Below, in pieces: positions 7,091 to 64,000 of a stretch of 64,000 nt of DNA. A model generated the notes under the pieces. It was not told the origin of the DNA. It ran no database searches and saw only the letters and a list, made by a program, of their open reading frames with translations. This stretch comes from an uncultured bacterium. Lineage in GTDB: Bacteria > Desulfobacterota > Desulfobaccia > Desulfobaccales > 0-14-0-80-60-11. The position numbers and the translations under genes are program-made. The stretch lies in assembly GCA_937943575.1 (NCBI GenBank), contig CALEAV010000004.1, positions 1-64,000 on the forward strand. Direction: 5' to 3'. The number at the start of each line of letters is the position of its first letter. The stretch's first letter is position 1.

Positions 7091-7458
7091 TGCGCCGCCG
7101 CGCCCCCGTCCCACGGCCGGTAAGGGTGGCCGGGCTCCTCAAGGAGACCCTGGCCACCATTCTCCTCACCAAGTGCGCCGACCCCCGCCTTGCGGAGCTC
7201 ACCCTTACCGCGGTGGAGATGACGCCGGACCTGAAGCAGGCCCGGGTTTATTACGTGGTGCGGCAGGGGGCCGACCGGGAACAGGTGCTGGCGGCCCTGG
7301 ACAAGGCCCTGGGCTTCATCCGGGGCGAGGTGGCCAAGGCCCACATCCTGCGCACCATGCCGGAGTTCCATTTCCTCCCGGATGACACCCTGGAGCGGGC
7401 CGCCCGCCTGGAGGCGCTGTTCAGGGAAATCGGCCGGCAGGAAGACCGAGGAGGCTAA
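7090..7458 (+). CDS. rbfA: 30S ribosome-binding factor RbfA
   Basis: 122 residues with the KH-like RbfA fold: an N-terminal helix (VAGLLKETLATILLTK), the strand segment LTLTAVEMTPDLKQARVYY, and the ending MPEFHFLPDDTLERAARL, all typical. RbfA binds the 30S subunit near helix 1 of 16S rRNA and is needed for late maturation. The ATG overlaps the DUF503 stop in TGATG, so the two are translationally coupled. In related clusters a DHH-type oligoribonuclease gene usually follows; here a different small gene does. Confidence 0.95.
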   Translation: MRRRAPVPRPVRVAGLLKETLATILLTKCADPRLAELTLTAVEMTPDLKQARVYYVVRQGADREQVLAALDKALGFIRGEVAKAHILRTMPEFHFLPDDTLERAARLEALFREIGRQEDRGG

Positions 7459-58390: not shown

Positions 58391-59044
58391 TTACGGTTCC
58401 AGGGAGGTGAGGCCTTCCCGGATGGCGTACTTGGTGAGCTCGGCGATGCTGTGGATCCCCAGTTTGTGCATGATCTGCTGGCGGTGGGTCTCCACCGTCT
58501 TGACGCTGATGTGCAGCTGTTCGGCGATCTGGCCGGTGGGCTTGCCCTCGGCCATGAGCTGCAGCACCTCCCGCTCCCGGGGGGTGAGCATGGTGAAGGC
58601 GGAGGAGCGGGGGGCCGACATGCCCTGGACATAGTCCTGGATGACCACGTTGGAGACCCCCGGGCTCAGGTAGGTCTTGTTGGCCATCACCAGGCGGATG
58701 GCGGCGGCCAGCTCTTCAAAGGCGCAGTCCTTGAGGAGATATCCGGAGGACCCGGCCTTGAGCATGTTGACCACGAAGCGGCGGTCGGCATGCATGGAGA
58801 GGGCGATGATCTTGGTCTCGGGAAAGGCGGCCAGGACCTGCCGGGTGGCCTCAATGCCGTTGAGATCCGGCATGTTGACGTCCATGATGACCACGTCGGG
58901 CCTGAGGTCTTTGACGAGCTGCACCACTTCCCGCCCGTTTTCGGCTTCGGCCACCACCTCCATATCCGGTTCCTTGGCCAGAAGGGTGGCCAGACCTTGA
59001 CGGACGATCATGTGGTCATCAGCGATGATGATCCTCGTCTTCAT
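58391..59044 (-). CDS. NarL/FixJ-family response regulator
   Basis: 217 residues. The receiver domain has acidic residues Asp 9 and 10 (IIADDHMIVRQG), phospho-acceptor Asp 55 (VIMDVNMPDLNG) and the conserved Lys in SSGYLLKD. A linker of about 20 residues leads to a LuxR-type helix-turn-helix: LTPREREVLQLMAEGKPTGQ, HISVKTVETHRQQIMHKLG. It is a DNA-binding transcription regulator activated by the sensor kinase encoded upstream. The ATG at 59044 overlaps the kinase end by 26 bases. Target genes are unknown. Confidence 0.95.
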   Translation of the reverse strand: MKTRIIIADDHMIVRQGLATLLAKEPDMEVVAEAENGREVVQLVKDLRPDVVIMDVNMPDLNGIEATRQVLAAFPETKIIALSMHADRRFVVNMLKAGSSGYLLKDCAFEELAAAIRLVMANKTYLSPGVSNVVIQDYVQGMSAPRSSAFTMLTPREREVLQLMAEGKPTGQIAEQLHISVKTVETHRQQIMHKLGIHSIAELTKYAIREGLTSLEP

Positions 59045-60809
59045 GGTTTCCCTCTGTGGATATCCACCCTTCGGGGAGGGGCGCCCGGATGCGGACCGTG
59101 GTCCCTTCCTGCGGCTGGGAGCGGATGTCGAGGTGCGCCCCCATGTGTCCCAGGCGCTCCCGGATGCTGAAGAGCCCAAAGCCTGCCAATGTGCCGCTTT
59201 TGCTGAAAACATCTGCCACATCGAAGCCGATTCCATCATCTTTTATGTCAATGCACAATTTGTCATCCTGTTTGTCAAGGAAAATTTCCACCTGCCGGGC
59301 CCGGGCGTGCTTCACCGCATTGGTGAGGAGCTCCTGGATGGTCCGGAAGAGCAGCACCCGATGACCCTCCGGCAGCGATGGCAGGGGGGCGCCCCGCCGC
59401 ACGCTGACCCGGATGTGGTGGCGCCGCTCGAACTGCTCCGCCAGCCATTCCACCGCCTCCTCCCAGTCGCCCTCAAAGAGGAGGGGCGGACTCAATTTGG
59501 AGGTCAGCGCCCGGCTGGCGGCGATGGCTTCCTCCAGATAGCTGAGGGCCTCCCGCACCTCCTGGTCCCGGCCCTCCCAGGCCAGGGTTTCCCTGAGGGC
59601 CGAGAGCTTCAGCTTGGCCAGGGCCAGGGGCTGACCCACCTGGTCATGCAGGTCCACCGCCAGGCTGCGGCGCTCCCGTTCCTCGGTGAGGGAGAGCTCC
59701 GCCGCCAGGGAGCGCAGCCGCTCCTGGTAGGACTCCAGCATGGCCTGGGATTCCTTCTGGGGGGTGATGTCCTCCACCATGCCCACCAACAGGAGCGGCC
59801 CCTCCGGATCCGGCCGGACGGCGGTGGTATGCACCCGGGTCCACAGGAGACGGCCGTCTTTGCGGATGAAGCGGGCCTCCCGCACATACCCCTGGCGGCG
59901 GCCCTCCCGGATTTCCTGAAACAGCCGCCGGCGCTCCGCCACATCCTCCGGATGGAGCAGGTCCTCGGTGGTGAAGCGGCACAGGTCCTCCAGGGGGTAC
60001 CCCAGCATGTTGATCATCGCGGCATTGACCTCCAGGCCTTTGCCATCGAGTTCCATGAGGCCGATGCCGATGGGGGCGTTCTCAAAGATGGTGCGGAACC
60101 GGGCCTCGCTCTGCCGCAAGGCCGCCTCCGCCTGACGGCGGGTGGTGATGTCCCGGGCGATGACCAGCACCGCCGGACGCCCGCGATAGAACAGGCGCAC
60201 CGCGGCGGTCTCCACGTCCACCAGGCTGCCGTCCAGGCGCTGCAGCTGAAGCTCCTGCCGGGGGACCTCGCCTTCCCCCTCCAGCACCTCCCGGATGCGC
60301 GCCGCGGCCAGCTCCCGGGAGGCCGGAGCGACCACCTCCAGCACCTCCCGGCCCTCCAGCTCCTCCGGGCTTTTTGCCCCCACCAGGCGGGCGGCGGCGG
60401 GGTTGAGGAAGACAAAGCGGCCGTCCTGATGCAGGGCGATGGCGTCCGGGGAGAGCTCCACCAGCCGGCGGTAGCGCTCCTCGCAATCCCGCAGGCGCTC
60501 CTCCACCCTGGATTGGGCCGCCTGGACCCGGCGATTTTCCTGATGCAGCTGCAGGCATTCCTGCAGGGTGGACTGGCAGCGGCGGTGGAAGCTGAAGGAG
60601 AGGCTGGCCCCCAAAAGGGCCGCGATCAACACCGTCACGGCGTCGATGCCCAGGATGGTGAAGTGGGGGCAGAGGCTGTGGTTGAGGAGTTCCGCCAGAG
60701 AGACGGTCACCAGAAGGCCAAGCGCCCATAACAGCGGTTGGAGCCGCAATCCCGGGGAGTTCGGAGGCCAGTCCCCCCGGTGTCCCCCGTCTTCCCAGCG
60801 TGTGGCCAT
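59019..60809 (-). CDS. NarX-type sensor histidine kinase with two PAS domains
   Basis: 596 residues. Two N-terminal membrane helices (about 23-45 and 50-72). A coiled coil (75-110) precedes PAS 1 (about 112-230, VELSPDAIALHQDG). PAS 2 (about 235-360, RTIFENAPIGIGLMELDG) ends in a PAC-like VGMVEDITPQKES. The HisKA_3 phospho-acceptor is His in ERERRSLAVDLHDQVGQPL. The ATPase domain has TIQELLTNAVKHARA (N-box) and DDGIGF. There is only a very short periplasmic part, so it probably senses within the membrane or cytoplasm. It overlaps its response regulator by 26 bases. Confidence 0.94.
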   Translation of the reverse strand: MATRWEDGGHRGDWPPNSPGLRLQPLLWALGLLVTVSLAELLNHSLCPHFTILGIDAVTVLIAALLGASLSFSFHRRCQSTLQECLQLHQENRRVQAAQSRVEERLRDCEERYRRLVELSPDAIALHQDGRFVFLNPAAARLVGAKSPEELEGREVLEVVAPASRELAAARIREVLEGEGEVPRQELQLQRLDGSLVDVETAAVRLFYRGRPAVLVIARDITTRRQAEAALRQSEARFRTIFENAPIGIGLMELDGKGLEVNAAMINMLGYPLEDLCRFTTEDLLHPEDVAERRRLFQEIREGRRQGYVREARFIRKDGRLLWTRVHTTAVRPDPEGPLLLVGMVEDITPQKESQAMLESYQERLRSLAAELSLTEERERRSLAVDLHDQVGQPLALAKLKLSALRETLAWEGRDQEVREALSYLEEAIAASRALTSKLSPPLLFEGDWEEAVEWLAEQFERRHHIRVSVRRGAPLPSLPEGHRVLLFRTIQELLTNAVKHARARQVEIFLDKQDDKLCIDIKDDGIGFDVADVFSKSGTLAGFGLFSIRERLGHMGAHLDIRSQPQEGTTVRIRAPLPEGWISTEGNHEDEDHHR

Positions 60810-61176
60810 GGCGGCGCCACCTCCGGCAGGTGGTCAAACCGGAAAAAAAGGTGGAGGCTCATCCATGAGCGGAAGCTGCGGAGATAATGGCTTCTTCGGG
60901 CTGGCCGCCGCACAGGCCGGGCCTGGAAAGGACCCGGACCCCGGGAGGGATACCCTCGAGGGTTCCCTCCTTTCAGACCCCTGTGTCATGGGGGTGATCA
61001 GGCGAAAAATAACCACACTCCTCTCGGGCAAAGCCTGACGGCTCAGCAGAAGCATGACTCCACCTTAACTATGGCATGGCCGGGGGGGCTCTGTCAATGG
61101 ACTAAAGTGCGCCTGCCTGATTCCTCCGCAAGGCGCAGGAATTGGCGCCCCCGGGGTTTTGTGCTACAGTGGCGAC
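60810..61176. other. spacer between divergent kinase and EndoQ-helicase genes
   Basis: 367 bases. A CTCGAGGGTTCCCTCC stretch near 60954-60970 and a patch GGGCAAAGCCTGACGG near 61026-61041 are visible. No good promoter pair or ORF. The downstream ATG at 61177 lacks a clear ribosome-binding site. Confidence 0.35.
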
Positions 61177-64000
61177 ATGGAGATTGTGGCCGACCTGCAC
61201 CTCCACTCCCGGTATTCCGTGGCCACCGGCCGCCAGGCGGACCTGCCGCATTTGGACCTCTGGGGCCGCTACAAAGGGGTGCAGGTGGTGGGCACCGGGG
61301 ACTGCACCCACCCCCACTGGCTGGCGGAGCTGGCGGCCCAGCTTCAGGAAGTGGCTCCGGGAACCTACGAACTCCGGCCCGAAGTGGCCCTGCCGCTGAA
61401 GCTCTCCGGCCTCCGGTGGGAGGCGGTGCCGCCGGTGCGCTTCCTTATCACCGGGGAGGTGAGCACCATCTACAAAAAAGGGGGCCGGATCCGCAAGGTG
61501 CACCTCCTGCTGGTGCTCTCCGGGCTGGAGGCGGCCCAGCGCCTGTCGCAACGTCTGGCCCGCATCGGCAATGTGGCGGCCGACGGCCGTCCCATCCTGG
61601 GGCTGGATGCCGCGGCGGCGACGGAGCTTGCTCTCGAGCAGGACCCCGGGGCCCTGGTCATTCCCGCCCACATCTGGACCCCCTGGTTTTCGGTCCTGGG
61701 GGCCAAAAGCGGCTTTGACTCCCTGGAAGAGTGCTTCGGGGAGACCCTGAGGCATATTTACGCCCTGGAGACGGGCCTGTCCTCAGACCCGGCCATGAAC
61801 TGGCGGGTGAGCGCCCTGGACCGCTTTGTCCTGGTGTCCAATTCCGACGCCCATTCCCCGGAGAAGCTGGGGCGGGAGGCCAATCTCCTCGGCGTCCCCC
61901 CCACCTTTGCCGCCATCAGTCAGGCCCTCCGCAGCGGGGAGGGGTTCCTGGGGACCCTGGAGTTTTTCCCCGAAGAGGGCAAGTATCACCTGGACGGACA
62001 CCGCAAGTGCAGCCGGCGGCTTCTGCCCCAGGAGTCCCAGGCCGCCGGCGGGCGCTGTCCCCAGTGCGGGCAGCCCCTGACTTTGGGGGTGCTCCACCGG
62101 GTTCTGATGCTGGCCGACCGGGAGGAGGACGTCCGGCCCCCCCTCGCCCGCCCCTTCACCTCCCTCATCGGCCTGCCGGAAATTTTGGTGGAGGTCCTGG
62201 AAGCGGGTCCCGGCAGCAAGAAGGTGCGGCAGGCCTACTTTCAGCTCCTGGAGCGCCTGGGGCCCGAGCTCACCATTCTGCGGCACCGACCTGTGGAGGA
62301 CGTGGCCCGGGAAGGCGGCCCCCTGCTGGCCGAAGCCCTGGCCCGCATGCGCCGGGGAAAGGTGCGCATCTCCCCTGGCTATGACGGGCTCTTCGGGGAG
62401 GTGCACCTGTTCACTCCGGAAGAGCGGCGCCGCCTCCGGGGCCAGGAGGCTTTCTGGGCGGTGGCGGCGGCTTCACCCCCGCCTGCGGTGGCGCCGGCAG
62501 CCGTCAGCGCCGCCGATGCCCCTGCGGCCCCTCCCCCCGTGGCGGCGGAGCCCGCCCCTGCCCCGGAACGCCTCAATCCGGCGCAGCAGCGGGCCGTGGC
62601 CCACACGGGCGGCACGCTGGTGGTCCAGGCCGGGCCGGGGACCGGCAAGACCCGGGCCCTGACCCACCGGGTGGCGCACCTCCTGGCTTCCGGAGTGCCG
62701 CCCGGCCAGATCCTGGCCATCACCTTCACCCGGCAGGCGGCGGAGGAGATGGCCCGCCGGGTGGCCCGGCTGCTCCCTGGCCACCCCGGGGTGGCGGAGC
62801 TCACCATCTCCACCTTCCACGCCCTGGGCCTGGGGCTGCTCAGTGAGGCGGGGCAGGGGCGGCAGGTGGCGGACGACGGCACGCGGCGGCAGATCATTCA
62901 AGAGGTGGCCCGGCGGCATGATCTGAGGCCCGCGCTCCTGGAGCGGCGCCTCTGCCAGGCCAAGAACCGGCTCGCCTCCCCGGACGGCGGCGGCCAGGGG
63001 GTGCCCCCCGACCTTTGGCCCGCCTTCCGGGACTATGAGGCGGCCCTGGCCGGGGCCGGGGTGTATGATTTCGAGGATCTGGTGGCCCGGCCGGTGCGCC
63101 TGCTGGAAGAAGATCCCGATCTGCGGACGGCCTGGCAGGGGCGCTGGCGCCACTTTCTGGTGGATGAGTTTCAGGACCTCAACCAGGCCCAGTATCGTTT
63201 CCTGTCGGCCCTGGCCGGAGAGGCGCCGGCGTCCCTTTTGGCCATCGGCGACCCCAACCAGGCCATCTATGGTTTCCGGGGCGCCAGCCCGGAGTTTTTC
63301 CGGCGCCTGCCGGCGACGCGGCCGGCGGCCCTGGTGATGCATTTCCCCGAGACCTACCGGCTGCCCCCGCCCCTCCTGGCTGCCTCCCGGCGGGTCCTGC
63401 CGCCGGCGGCGCAAACCGGGGCCCCAAAGATCAGCCGGCGGCCGGGGGAGGCCCCGCCCCTGCTCCTGGAGGCCCCCACCCCTGAAGGGGAGGCCCAGGC
63501 CATCGCCGGCGCCATCGAGGCCCTGGTGGGGGGGGTCCGCCATCAGTGGCTGTTCCGGGACCACCTTACCTCCGCAGGCGAGGCGGGGTTCGGGGAGATC
63601 GCCGTACTCTACCGGCTGCATGCCCAAGGCGAGCTGTTGGCGGAGGAGCTCAGCCGGGCGGGCATCCCCTGCCAGCTGGTCCGGGAGGGCATCGGCCCGG
63701 ACTGGGAGGACCTGGATCTGGCGGCGGCCCGGGTGAAGCTCCTCTCTCTCCATGCCGCCAAGGGCCTGGAGTTTGACTATGTCTTGGTGGCCGGCTGTGA
63801 GGACGGGTTGCTGCCCCTGAGACTGGCGGGGGACGACCCGCCGGACCCGGAGGAGGAGCGCCGCCTGGTGTATGTAGGGCTCACCCGGGCCCGGACGCAG
63901 GTCATCCTCACCCGGGCCCGGCGTCGCCGGCTGGCGGGCCTCCAGGGTGCCACCCGGCTCTCCCCCTGGGTGGCGGCGGTGGCCCCGGAGACGTGGCGGC
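61177..64000 (+). CDS. endonuclease Q fused to UvrD/Rep superfamily 1 helicase (3' end outside window)
   Basis: One open frame of 941 visible residues with no stop before the window end. Residues 1 to about 405 match endonuclease Q: metal-binding VADLHLHSRYS, GTGDCTHPHW, ITGEVSTIYK, PAHIWTPWFSVLG, SSDPAMNWRVS and SNSDAHSPEKLGREA. EGKYHLDGHRKC follows, with Cys 278, 294 and 297 (CPQCG) of a zinc site. A Pro/Ala linker spans about 430-465. The helicase follows: AGPGTGKT (485-492), DEFQ (663-666), GDPNQAIYGFRG (691-702), LHAAKGLEF near 856-864 and YVGLTRAR (899-906). EndoQ cleaves 5' of deaminated bases and abasic sites; the helicase could unwind from the nick. Confidence 0.92.
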   Translation, partial: MEIVADLHLHSRYSVATGRQADLPHLDLWGRYKGVQVVGTGDCTHPHWLAELAAQLQEVAPGTYELRPEVALPLKLSGLRWEAVPPVRFLITGEVSTIYKKGGRIRKVHLLLVLSGLEAAQRLSQRLARIGNVAADGRPILGLDAAAATELALEQDPGALVIPAHIWTPWFSVLGAKSGFDSLEECFGETLRHIYALETGLSSDPAMNWRVSALDRFVLVSNSDAHSPEKLGREANLLGVPPTFAAISQALRSGEGFLGTLEFFPEEGKYHLDGHRKCSRRLLPQESQAAGGRCPQCGQPLTLGVLHRVLMLADREEDVRPPLARPFTSLIGLPEILVEVLEAGPGSKKVRQAYFQLLERLGPELTILRHRPVEDVAREGGPLLAEALARMRRGKVRISPGYDGLFGEVHLFTPEERRRLRGQEAFWAVAAASPPPAVAPAAVSAADAPAAPPPVAAEPAPAPERLNPAQQRAVAHTGGTLVVQAGPGTGKTRALTHRVAHLLASGVPPGQILAITFTRQAAEEMARRVARLLPGHPGVAELTISTFHALGLGLLSEAGQGRQVADDGTRRQIIQEVARRHDLRPALLERRLCQAKNRLASPDGGGQGVPPDLWPAFRDYEAALAGAGVYDFEDLVARPVRLLEEDPDLRTAWQGRWRHFLVDEFQDLNQAQYRFLSALAGEAPASLLAIGDPNQAIYGFRGASPEFFRRLPATRPAALVMHFPETYRLPPPLLAASRRVLPPAAQTGAPKISRRPGEAPPLLLEAPTPEGEAQAIAGAIEALVGGVRHQWLFRDHLTSAGEAGFGEIAVLYRLHAQGELLAEELSRAGIPCQLVREGIGPDWEDLDLAAARVKLLSLHAAKGLEFDYVLVAGCEDGLLPLRLAGDDPPDPEEERRLVYVGLTRARTQVILTRARRRRLAGLQGATRLSPWVAAVAPETWR

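Follow-up and report, generated by a model that had tools for sequence, protein, structure and literature searches.

The locus studied here raises the question of whether a nuclease of the endonuclease Q (EndoQ) type and a helicase are truly joined in one protein and, if so, what such a protein would do in the cell. The window, by which we mean the whole stretch of DNA analysed, comprises 64,000 nucleotides of contig CALEAV010000004.1 (assembly GCA_937943575.1), from an uncultured bacterium of the order Desulfobaccales. Reading the contig beyond the window, we found that the gene is a single open frame on the forward strand, which begins with an ATG at 61177, crosses the last position of the window at 64000 and continues to a stop codon ending at contig position 64083; the window therefore ends 83 bases short of the end of that codon, and the complete product has 968 amino acids. 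The start codon is backed by the sequence MEVIADLHIHS, which is kept in the aligned relatives. The protein consists of an EndoQ-type PHP nuclease (residues 1-420), a disordered linker and an SF1A helicase resembling UvrD and PcrA. The preliminary description had placed EndoQ and a UvrD/Rep-type helicase in one uninterrupted frame, and this was borne out over 61177-64083, where both halves were matched; E-values of 1e-50 and 1e-59 within one frame cannot be due to chance, and we conclude that the protein joins a nuclease of the EndoQ type to an SF1A helicase.

The nuclease domain occupies 61177-62436. Its residues 3-416 match the PfuEndoQ structures 5zb8 and 7k30 by sequence (E 2.7e-50 and 1.5e-49), and a Foldseek search with the AlphaFold2 model returned 5zb8 with an E-value of 5.3e-35 and a TM-score of 0.91 on the target. 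The PHP metal motifs named in the preliminary description are present, and their Pfu counterparts align with them: motif I, D6-x-H8-x-H10 (61192-61206), is invariant or nearly so and aligns with the Pfu DLHIH; E94, H109 and H165 (61456-61671) are invariant in alignments of 18 and of 58 sequences; and motif IV, D224-A-H226 (61846-61854), is also conserved, D224 being aligned to the Pfu aspartate that is an asparagine in the 7k30 crystal construct. All eight PHP metal residues are accordingly conserved. The zinc-ribbon site consists of H275, C278, C294 and C297 (61999-62067), that is, His-Cys-Cys-Cys as against the four cysteines of the archaeal enzyme; the first ligand (61999-62001) is His in the aligned bacterial EndoQs and Cys in P. 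furiosus. Four zinc-finger cysteines have been suggested as a signature of the EndoQ family (PMC4357722), and this protein keeps three of them; because H275 stands in place of the first, we use the term EndoQ-type. The domain matches TIGR00375 with an E-value of 1.6e-39 and 136.4 bits, under the curated cut-off of 326.6, which none of the 394 sampled genomes of the phylum reaches. In comparison with the known family (PfuEndoQ PF1551, TkoEndoQ and the enzymes of Methanosarcina and Bacillus pumilus; COG1379/TIGR00375), the protein shares the fold, the PHP metal residues, the position of the zinc ribbon, similarity over the full length and a C-terminal clamp-type motif; it differs in its zinc ligands, in its score under the TIGR00375 cut-off and in being fused to a helicase, whereas the characterised EndoQs stand alone (424 residues in Pfu and 421 in Tko). 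From the known biochemistry of EndoQ, its substrates would be uracil, hypoxanthine, xanthine and abasic sites, and the cut would lie 5' of the lesion.

The helicase half (residues 465-940, 62569-63996) was assigned to SF1A, with domains 1A, 1B and 2A, by profile, structure and fold matches. Models of UvrD-helicase (E 2e-59) and UvrD_C (E 1.4e-25) match it, as do structures of PcrA, UvrD and Rep, and the best structural match in Foldseek is PcrA 1pjr (E 5.9e-37). In the alignment of 58 sequences, motif I, AGPGTGKT (residues 485-492, 62629-62652), has P487, G488, G490, K491 and T492 invariant; the same alignment places motif II, DEFQD (663-667, 63163-63177), motif III, GDPNQAIYGFRGA (691-703, 63247-63285), motif V, HAAKGLEF (859-866, 63751-63774), and motif VI, EERRLVYVGLTRA (893-905, 63853-63891). 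A complete set of helicase motifs had been described; this is right, motifs I to VI all being present, but domain 2B is missing, so that the protein is no complete UvrD. The 3' end, which had been proposed as a check on both subdomains of domain 2, has now been read, and it contains a complete 2A and no 2B. The protein shares all motifs and domains 1A, 1B and 2A with PcrA, UvrD and Rep but falls far under the corresponding equivalog cut-offs (258 of 911 bits for pcrA, 213 of 1144 for uvrD and 241 of 951 for rep), and it differs from them also in its N-terminal EndoQ and its C-terminal clamp motif; domain 2B, absent in the window's lineage, is shortened in several others.

The site of the missing 2B spans the 30 residues between AGIP and KGLEF (832-861, 63670-63759), where PcrA has about 190; in the alignment, PcrA residue 382 pairs with residue 382 of the helicase half and PcrA residue 558 already with its residue 398, and the region is coil in the AlphaFold2 model. 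Measured by alignment across the fused proteins, this spacing is exactly 30 in 25 of them (Desulfobaccales and two Desulfarculales-type sequences, with two duplicates included) and 88-193 in all others having both motifs. In trees built without the 2B columns, the 30-residue set forms one side of a branch with SH-aLRT values of 69 (helicase half) and 99 (combined tree); a single loss of 2B is suggested, and this rests mainly on the combined tree. Separate complete losses in Gastranaerophilales were considered and rejected, as about 90 residues are kept there. Removal of 2B is known to relieve autoinhibition and to activate Rep monomers (PMC13238157). Because the autoinhibitory domain is gone in the window's lineage, the motor probably works there as a monomer, under the control of the nuclease half and the clamp. 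The engineered RepDelta2B is likewise an SF1A motor lacking 2B; in contrast to that laboratory construct, 2B was here lost in nature, the loss has become fixed in a clade, and the motor is linked to a nuclease.

The two halves are connected by an Ala/Pro-rich linker (residues 429-464, 62461-62568) that is predicted to be disordered, with pLDDT below 50. The AlphaFold2 model, built with 58 homologues, has a mean pLDDT of 88.6, low mainly at the linker, at the loop 788-799 and in the C-terminal tail; it contains two confident domains joined by a flexible linker, and its pTM of 0.55 indicates that the halves have no fixed mutual arrangement. The tail starts at 63997-64000 and runs past the end of the window, where it carries a candidate sliding-clamp-binding motif, QRCLF (residues 952-956, contig 64030-64044), recognised by sequence pattern and located in the predicted disordered tail, that is, at an exposed site. 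Among 58 sequences, Q952 and L955 are nearly invariant and the consensus C-terminal end is QLxLF. A QxxLF-type match lies within the last 35 residues of 78 of 85 fused and 32 of 41 unfused proteins. As controls, 23 of 748 further frames of these loci and 4% of internal stretches of 35 residues contained a match; some of the control frames are non-genes, which makes the enrichment an approximate figure. QLSFF and QLKFF, variants outside the pattern used, are among the misses. The stricter QL[SD]LF has no match in the window's lineage, whose second motif position is usually Pro or Arg rather than Leu, and QRCLF, with Arg where the consensus prefers Leu, may bind only weakly. Three actinomycete fusions (L136, L133 and L145) end in QLRLL or QLSLL instead of QLxLF, which perhaps fits the actinomycetes' own clamp.

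It has been reported that PCNA binds and stimulates archaeal EndoQ through a C-terminal PIP box, that bacterial EndoQ homologues end in clamp motifs (PMC4858679), and that QxxLF is a general clamp motif (PMC12309361). Our study extends the observation of clamp motifs from these homologues to the fusions, and the tail probably docks on the replication clamp. The Thermococcales EndoQ-PCNA assembly is the closest parallel, a 5'-nicking damage enzyme with a C-terminal clamp peptide; here docking is predicted, the bacterial beta clamp would replace PCNA, and the archaeal enzyme has no helicase.

Special attention was given to the distribution of the fusion. Of the 22 genomes of the window's family, its own included, 16 encode the fusion in one frame, three encode EndoQ alone, one retains a remnant and two, both of low completeness, have no EndoQ match. 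A frameshift or misassembly at 62430-62560 can be ruled out, because the identical in-frame junction recurs in these 16 independent genomes and in many further families and phyla. EndoQ had been described as known from Thermococcales and a few bacteria; our counts extend it well beyond these: 263 of the 394 sampled genomes of the phylum have a match, and at least 587 EndoQ-encoding stretches occur among GTDB representatives. The listed frame lengths in the phylum fall mostly into two classes, about 415-480 and 950-1190 residues. The frames examined come from loci of the family, the phylum and the GTDB representatives, a similarity-ranked set with a few duplicates rather than a census; 99 of them are fused as against 41 unfused, so that the fusion is the most frequent form in this sample of relatives. 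It occurs in over a dozen phyla besides the window's own; its carriers are named as Bacillota, Actinomycetota, Planctomycetota, Myxococcota, Gemmatimonadota, Binatota, Chloroflexota, Spirochaetota, Bacteroidota, Fibrobacterota, Verrucomicrobiota, Pseudomonadota, Elusimicrobiota, Melainabacteria and KSB1, many of them being metagenome-assembled and loosely named, so that individual placements may be wrong. In some relatives the frame seems to be interrupted by internal stops; these look like the terminal stop, which the alignment has run across. In two loci the fusion frame is broken, by a run of A in L144 (Gastranaerophilales, 7240-7250) and by one in-frame TAG in L074 (6907-6909), either through sequencing error or through real splitting.

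In a tree of 138 EndoQ domains, obtained with a quick method and a distant outgroup, the fused proteins group in a single clade (SH-aLRT 94) that lies within the stand-alone EndoQs and itself contains scattered reversions to the unfused state. These results indicate that the fusion has one main origin within bacterial EndoQs and was later undone in places, and since this one clade spans many phyla, that it has long been retained. Three of the reversions are instructive. The three genomes of genus g3 (G004, G012 and G015) have kept the EndoQ half and lost both the helicase half and the clamp motif; in the two examined, G004 and G012, TamA directly follows EndoQ in the former place of the helicase half. 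The remnant in G007 (L158, 6276-6568), residues 1-59 near a piece matching 387-436, is a decayed fusion gene. In one Omnitrophota genome (L132, 5965-8947), EndoQ and UvrD are separate neighbouring genes: EndoQ ends in KQLTLF and a stop codon, an ATG about ten bases on opens a UvrD gene ending in QQLKLFLQ, and each product thus has its own clamp-type motif. Such split adjacent genes point to a joint function. Among three congeneric species, dN/dS is 0.16-0.20 for the EndoQ half, 0.24-0.29 for the helicase half, 0.39-0.50 for the linker and, on few sites, 0.55-0.82 for the tail; both halves are maintained by purifying selection, and EndoQ is the better conserved.

The genes directly 3' of the fusion gene encode Omp85/TamA and TamB (L008, 6177-11981, contig C4, just past the window), and this synteny is kept across the sampled Desulfobaccales, even where the helicase half has been lost; we see no obvious functional link between TamA/TamB and the fusion. 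The gene thus has TamA/TamB and a two-component pair as neighbours in the window's genome, and TamA/TamB in relatives. A promoter-like block at 61145-61179, TTGGCG-17 nt-TACAGT with TG before it, is conserved in three congeners and ends six bases from the ATG. With this closeness to the start codon and no clear ribosome-binding site, the arrangement suggests a leaderless transcript; a standard promoter scan did not list this proposed forward promoter. The scan did list a promoter-like TTGACA-18-CATAGT with TG on the minus strand (61068-61097), which points to a divergent PAS histidine kinase and LuxR-type regulator (58391-60809).

We consider it probable, with appreciable room for doubt, that the protein is a DNA-repair enzyme, tied to the replication clamp, that couples incision at a lesion to unwinding. 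The architecture, the intact active-site and helicase residues, the absent 2B, the QxxLF tail, the selection on both halves and the phylogeny are observations; substrate, cut position, polarity, clamp binding and activation by loss of 2B are carried over from the biochemistry of EndoQ, UvrD and clamps, and we infer purely by reasoning the hand-over within one protein and the steps downstream. The EndoQ half would recognise a uracil, hypoxanthine, xanthine or abasic site and cut immediately on its 5' side, so that one end of the nick is a 3'-OH and the other, a 5' end, carries the lesion. The helicase tethered to it, which moves 3'-to-5', would then load on the intact strand at the nick and advance beneath the damaged strand, displacing this strand as a 5' flap, while a polymerase on the same clamp would extend the 3'-OH and a flap or 5' exonuclease and ligase would finish the repair. 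In the window's lineage, the motor lacking 2B would be controlled by the nuclease half and the clamp. The polarity of UvrD, 3'-to-5', is established. After an EndoQ nick, the downstream strand has the lesion at its 5' end (PMC4357722, PMC6202378), and a helicase on the intact strand would head for the lesion and beyond it, with the 3'-OH left free for synthesis; the polarity therefore fits nick-coupled unwinding without special assumptions. The proposed action resembles mismatch repair by MutH/MutL, UvrD and the clamp, where a nick is likewise followed by UvrD unwinding near the clamp; there the proteins are separate and directed by mismatch and methylation, whereas here one chain would act and the lesion would set the nick.

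It is important to note that this route is at least partly redundant, because uracil-DNA glycosylase (UDG) and EndoV are both encoded in the same genome; they are found in 56 and 37 of 59 relatives, respectively. A role as a stand-in for an absent UDG or EndoV was rejected, both being present in the genome itself and in most of the family. Likewise, the deletion of the helicase half from relatives that kept EndoQ implies that coupling is not obligatory everywhere, and the state of genus g3 and of the G007 remnant implies that some species can do without the coupled enzyme.

The alternative that survives best, although we consider it unlikely, reverses the order of events: the helicase would ride the fork or DNA, opening duplex or displacing proteins, and EndoQ would inspect the exposed strand, so that unwinding precedes incision. 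EndoQ works well on duplex DNA according to published work, a nick made by the same protein is a natural loading site for a 3'-to-5' helicase, and incising an unwound template ahead of the fork would break the fork. On the other hand, EndoQ also cuts uracil and hypoxanthine in single-stranded DNA (PMC11354406), the clamp motif would put the protein at forks, and a motor lacking 2B may start without a nick. A distinctly less probable reading makes the protein a clamp-recruited accessory helicase for replication-transcription conflicts, with the EndoQ half independent or acting on other structures and the linkage a convenience. The clamp motif does lie on the helicase side, and genus g3 does have EndoQ without helicase; yet the fusion is kept across many phyla from one main origin, EndoQ is the better conserved half, and no genome of the sampled family was seen to have the helicase half at this locus without EndoQ.

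The combination of a nuclease with a UvrD-like helicase is a common design of defence systems, and GajB models of Gabija match the helicase half (best E 1.1e-66), which could suggest a defence against phages, such as those with uracil or hypoxanthine in their DNA. We consider this very improbable and rejected Gabija or another defence role: PcrA fits better (E 1.5e-76), no GajA was found among the neighbours, the gene is chromosomal and vertically inherited in the conserved TamA/TamB synteny, and no EndoQ match was found in phage or plasmid records. That two genes were joined by misassembly or chance has a negligible probability, as nothing was found in its favour and the junction is identical in dozens of independent genomes.

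Returning to incision coupled to unwinding at the clamp, we found no description of an EndoQ-UvrD fusion in the open-licence full-text literature, and an earlier one may exist elsewhere; the sequences are publicly available, presumably with automatic annotation. Each of the two domains is known, and what is new is their conserved combination, the clamp tail and the loss of 2B. The fusion looks like a common but unstudied DNA-repair machine. The EndoQ papers we consulted present the enzyme as chiefly archaeal, with few bacterial exceptions, and ask what acts after the nick; our results suggest that EndoQ is common in bacteria and that a frequent form, with its own helicase and clamp tag, points directly to that step. 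Such a protein, nicking at a deaminated base and unwinding from there, might also be used in deamination detection. Our broadest reading, a tentative one that we hold at somewhat under even chances, is a widespread clamp-docked nick-and-unwind pathway in which one lineage lost the 2B brake since nuclease and clamp control the motor. In the clade lacking 2B, nature provides a test of the restraint on SF1A motors, and, if this reading is true, the clade would be the natural counterpart of the engineered Rep lacking that domain.
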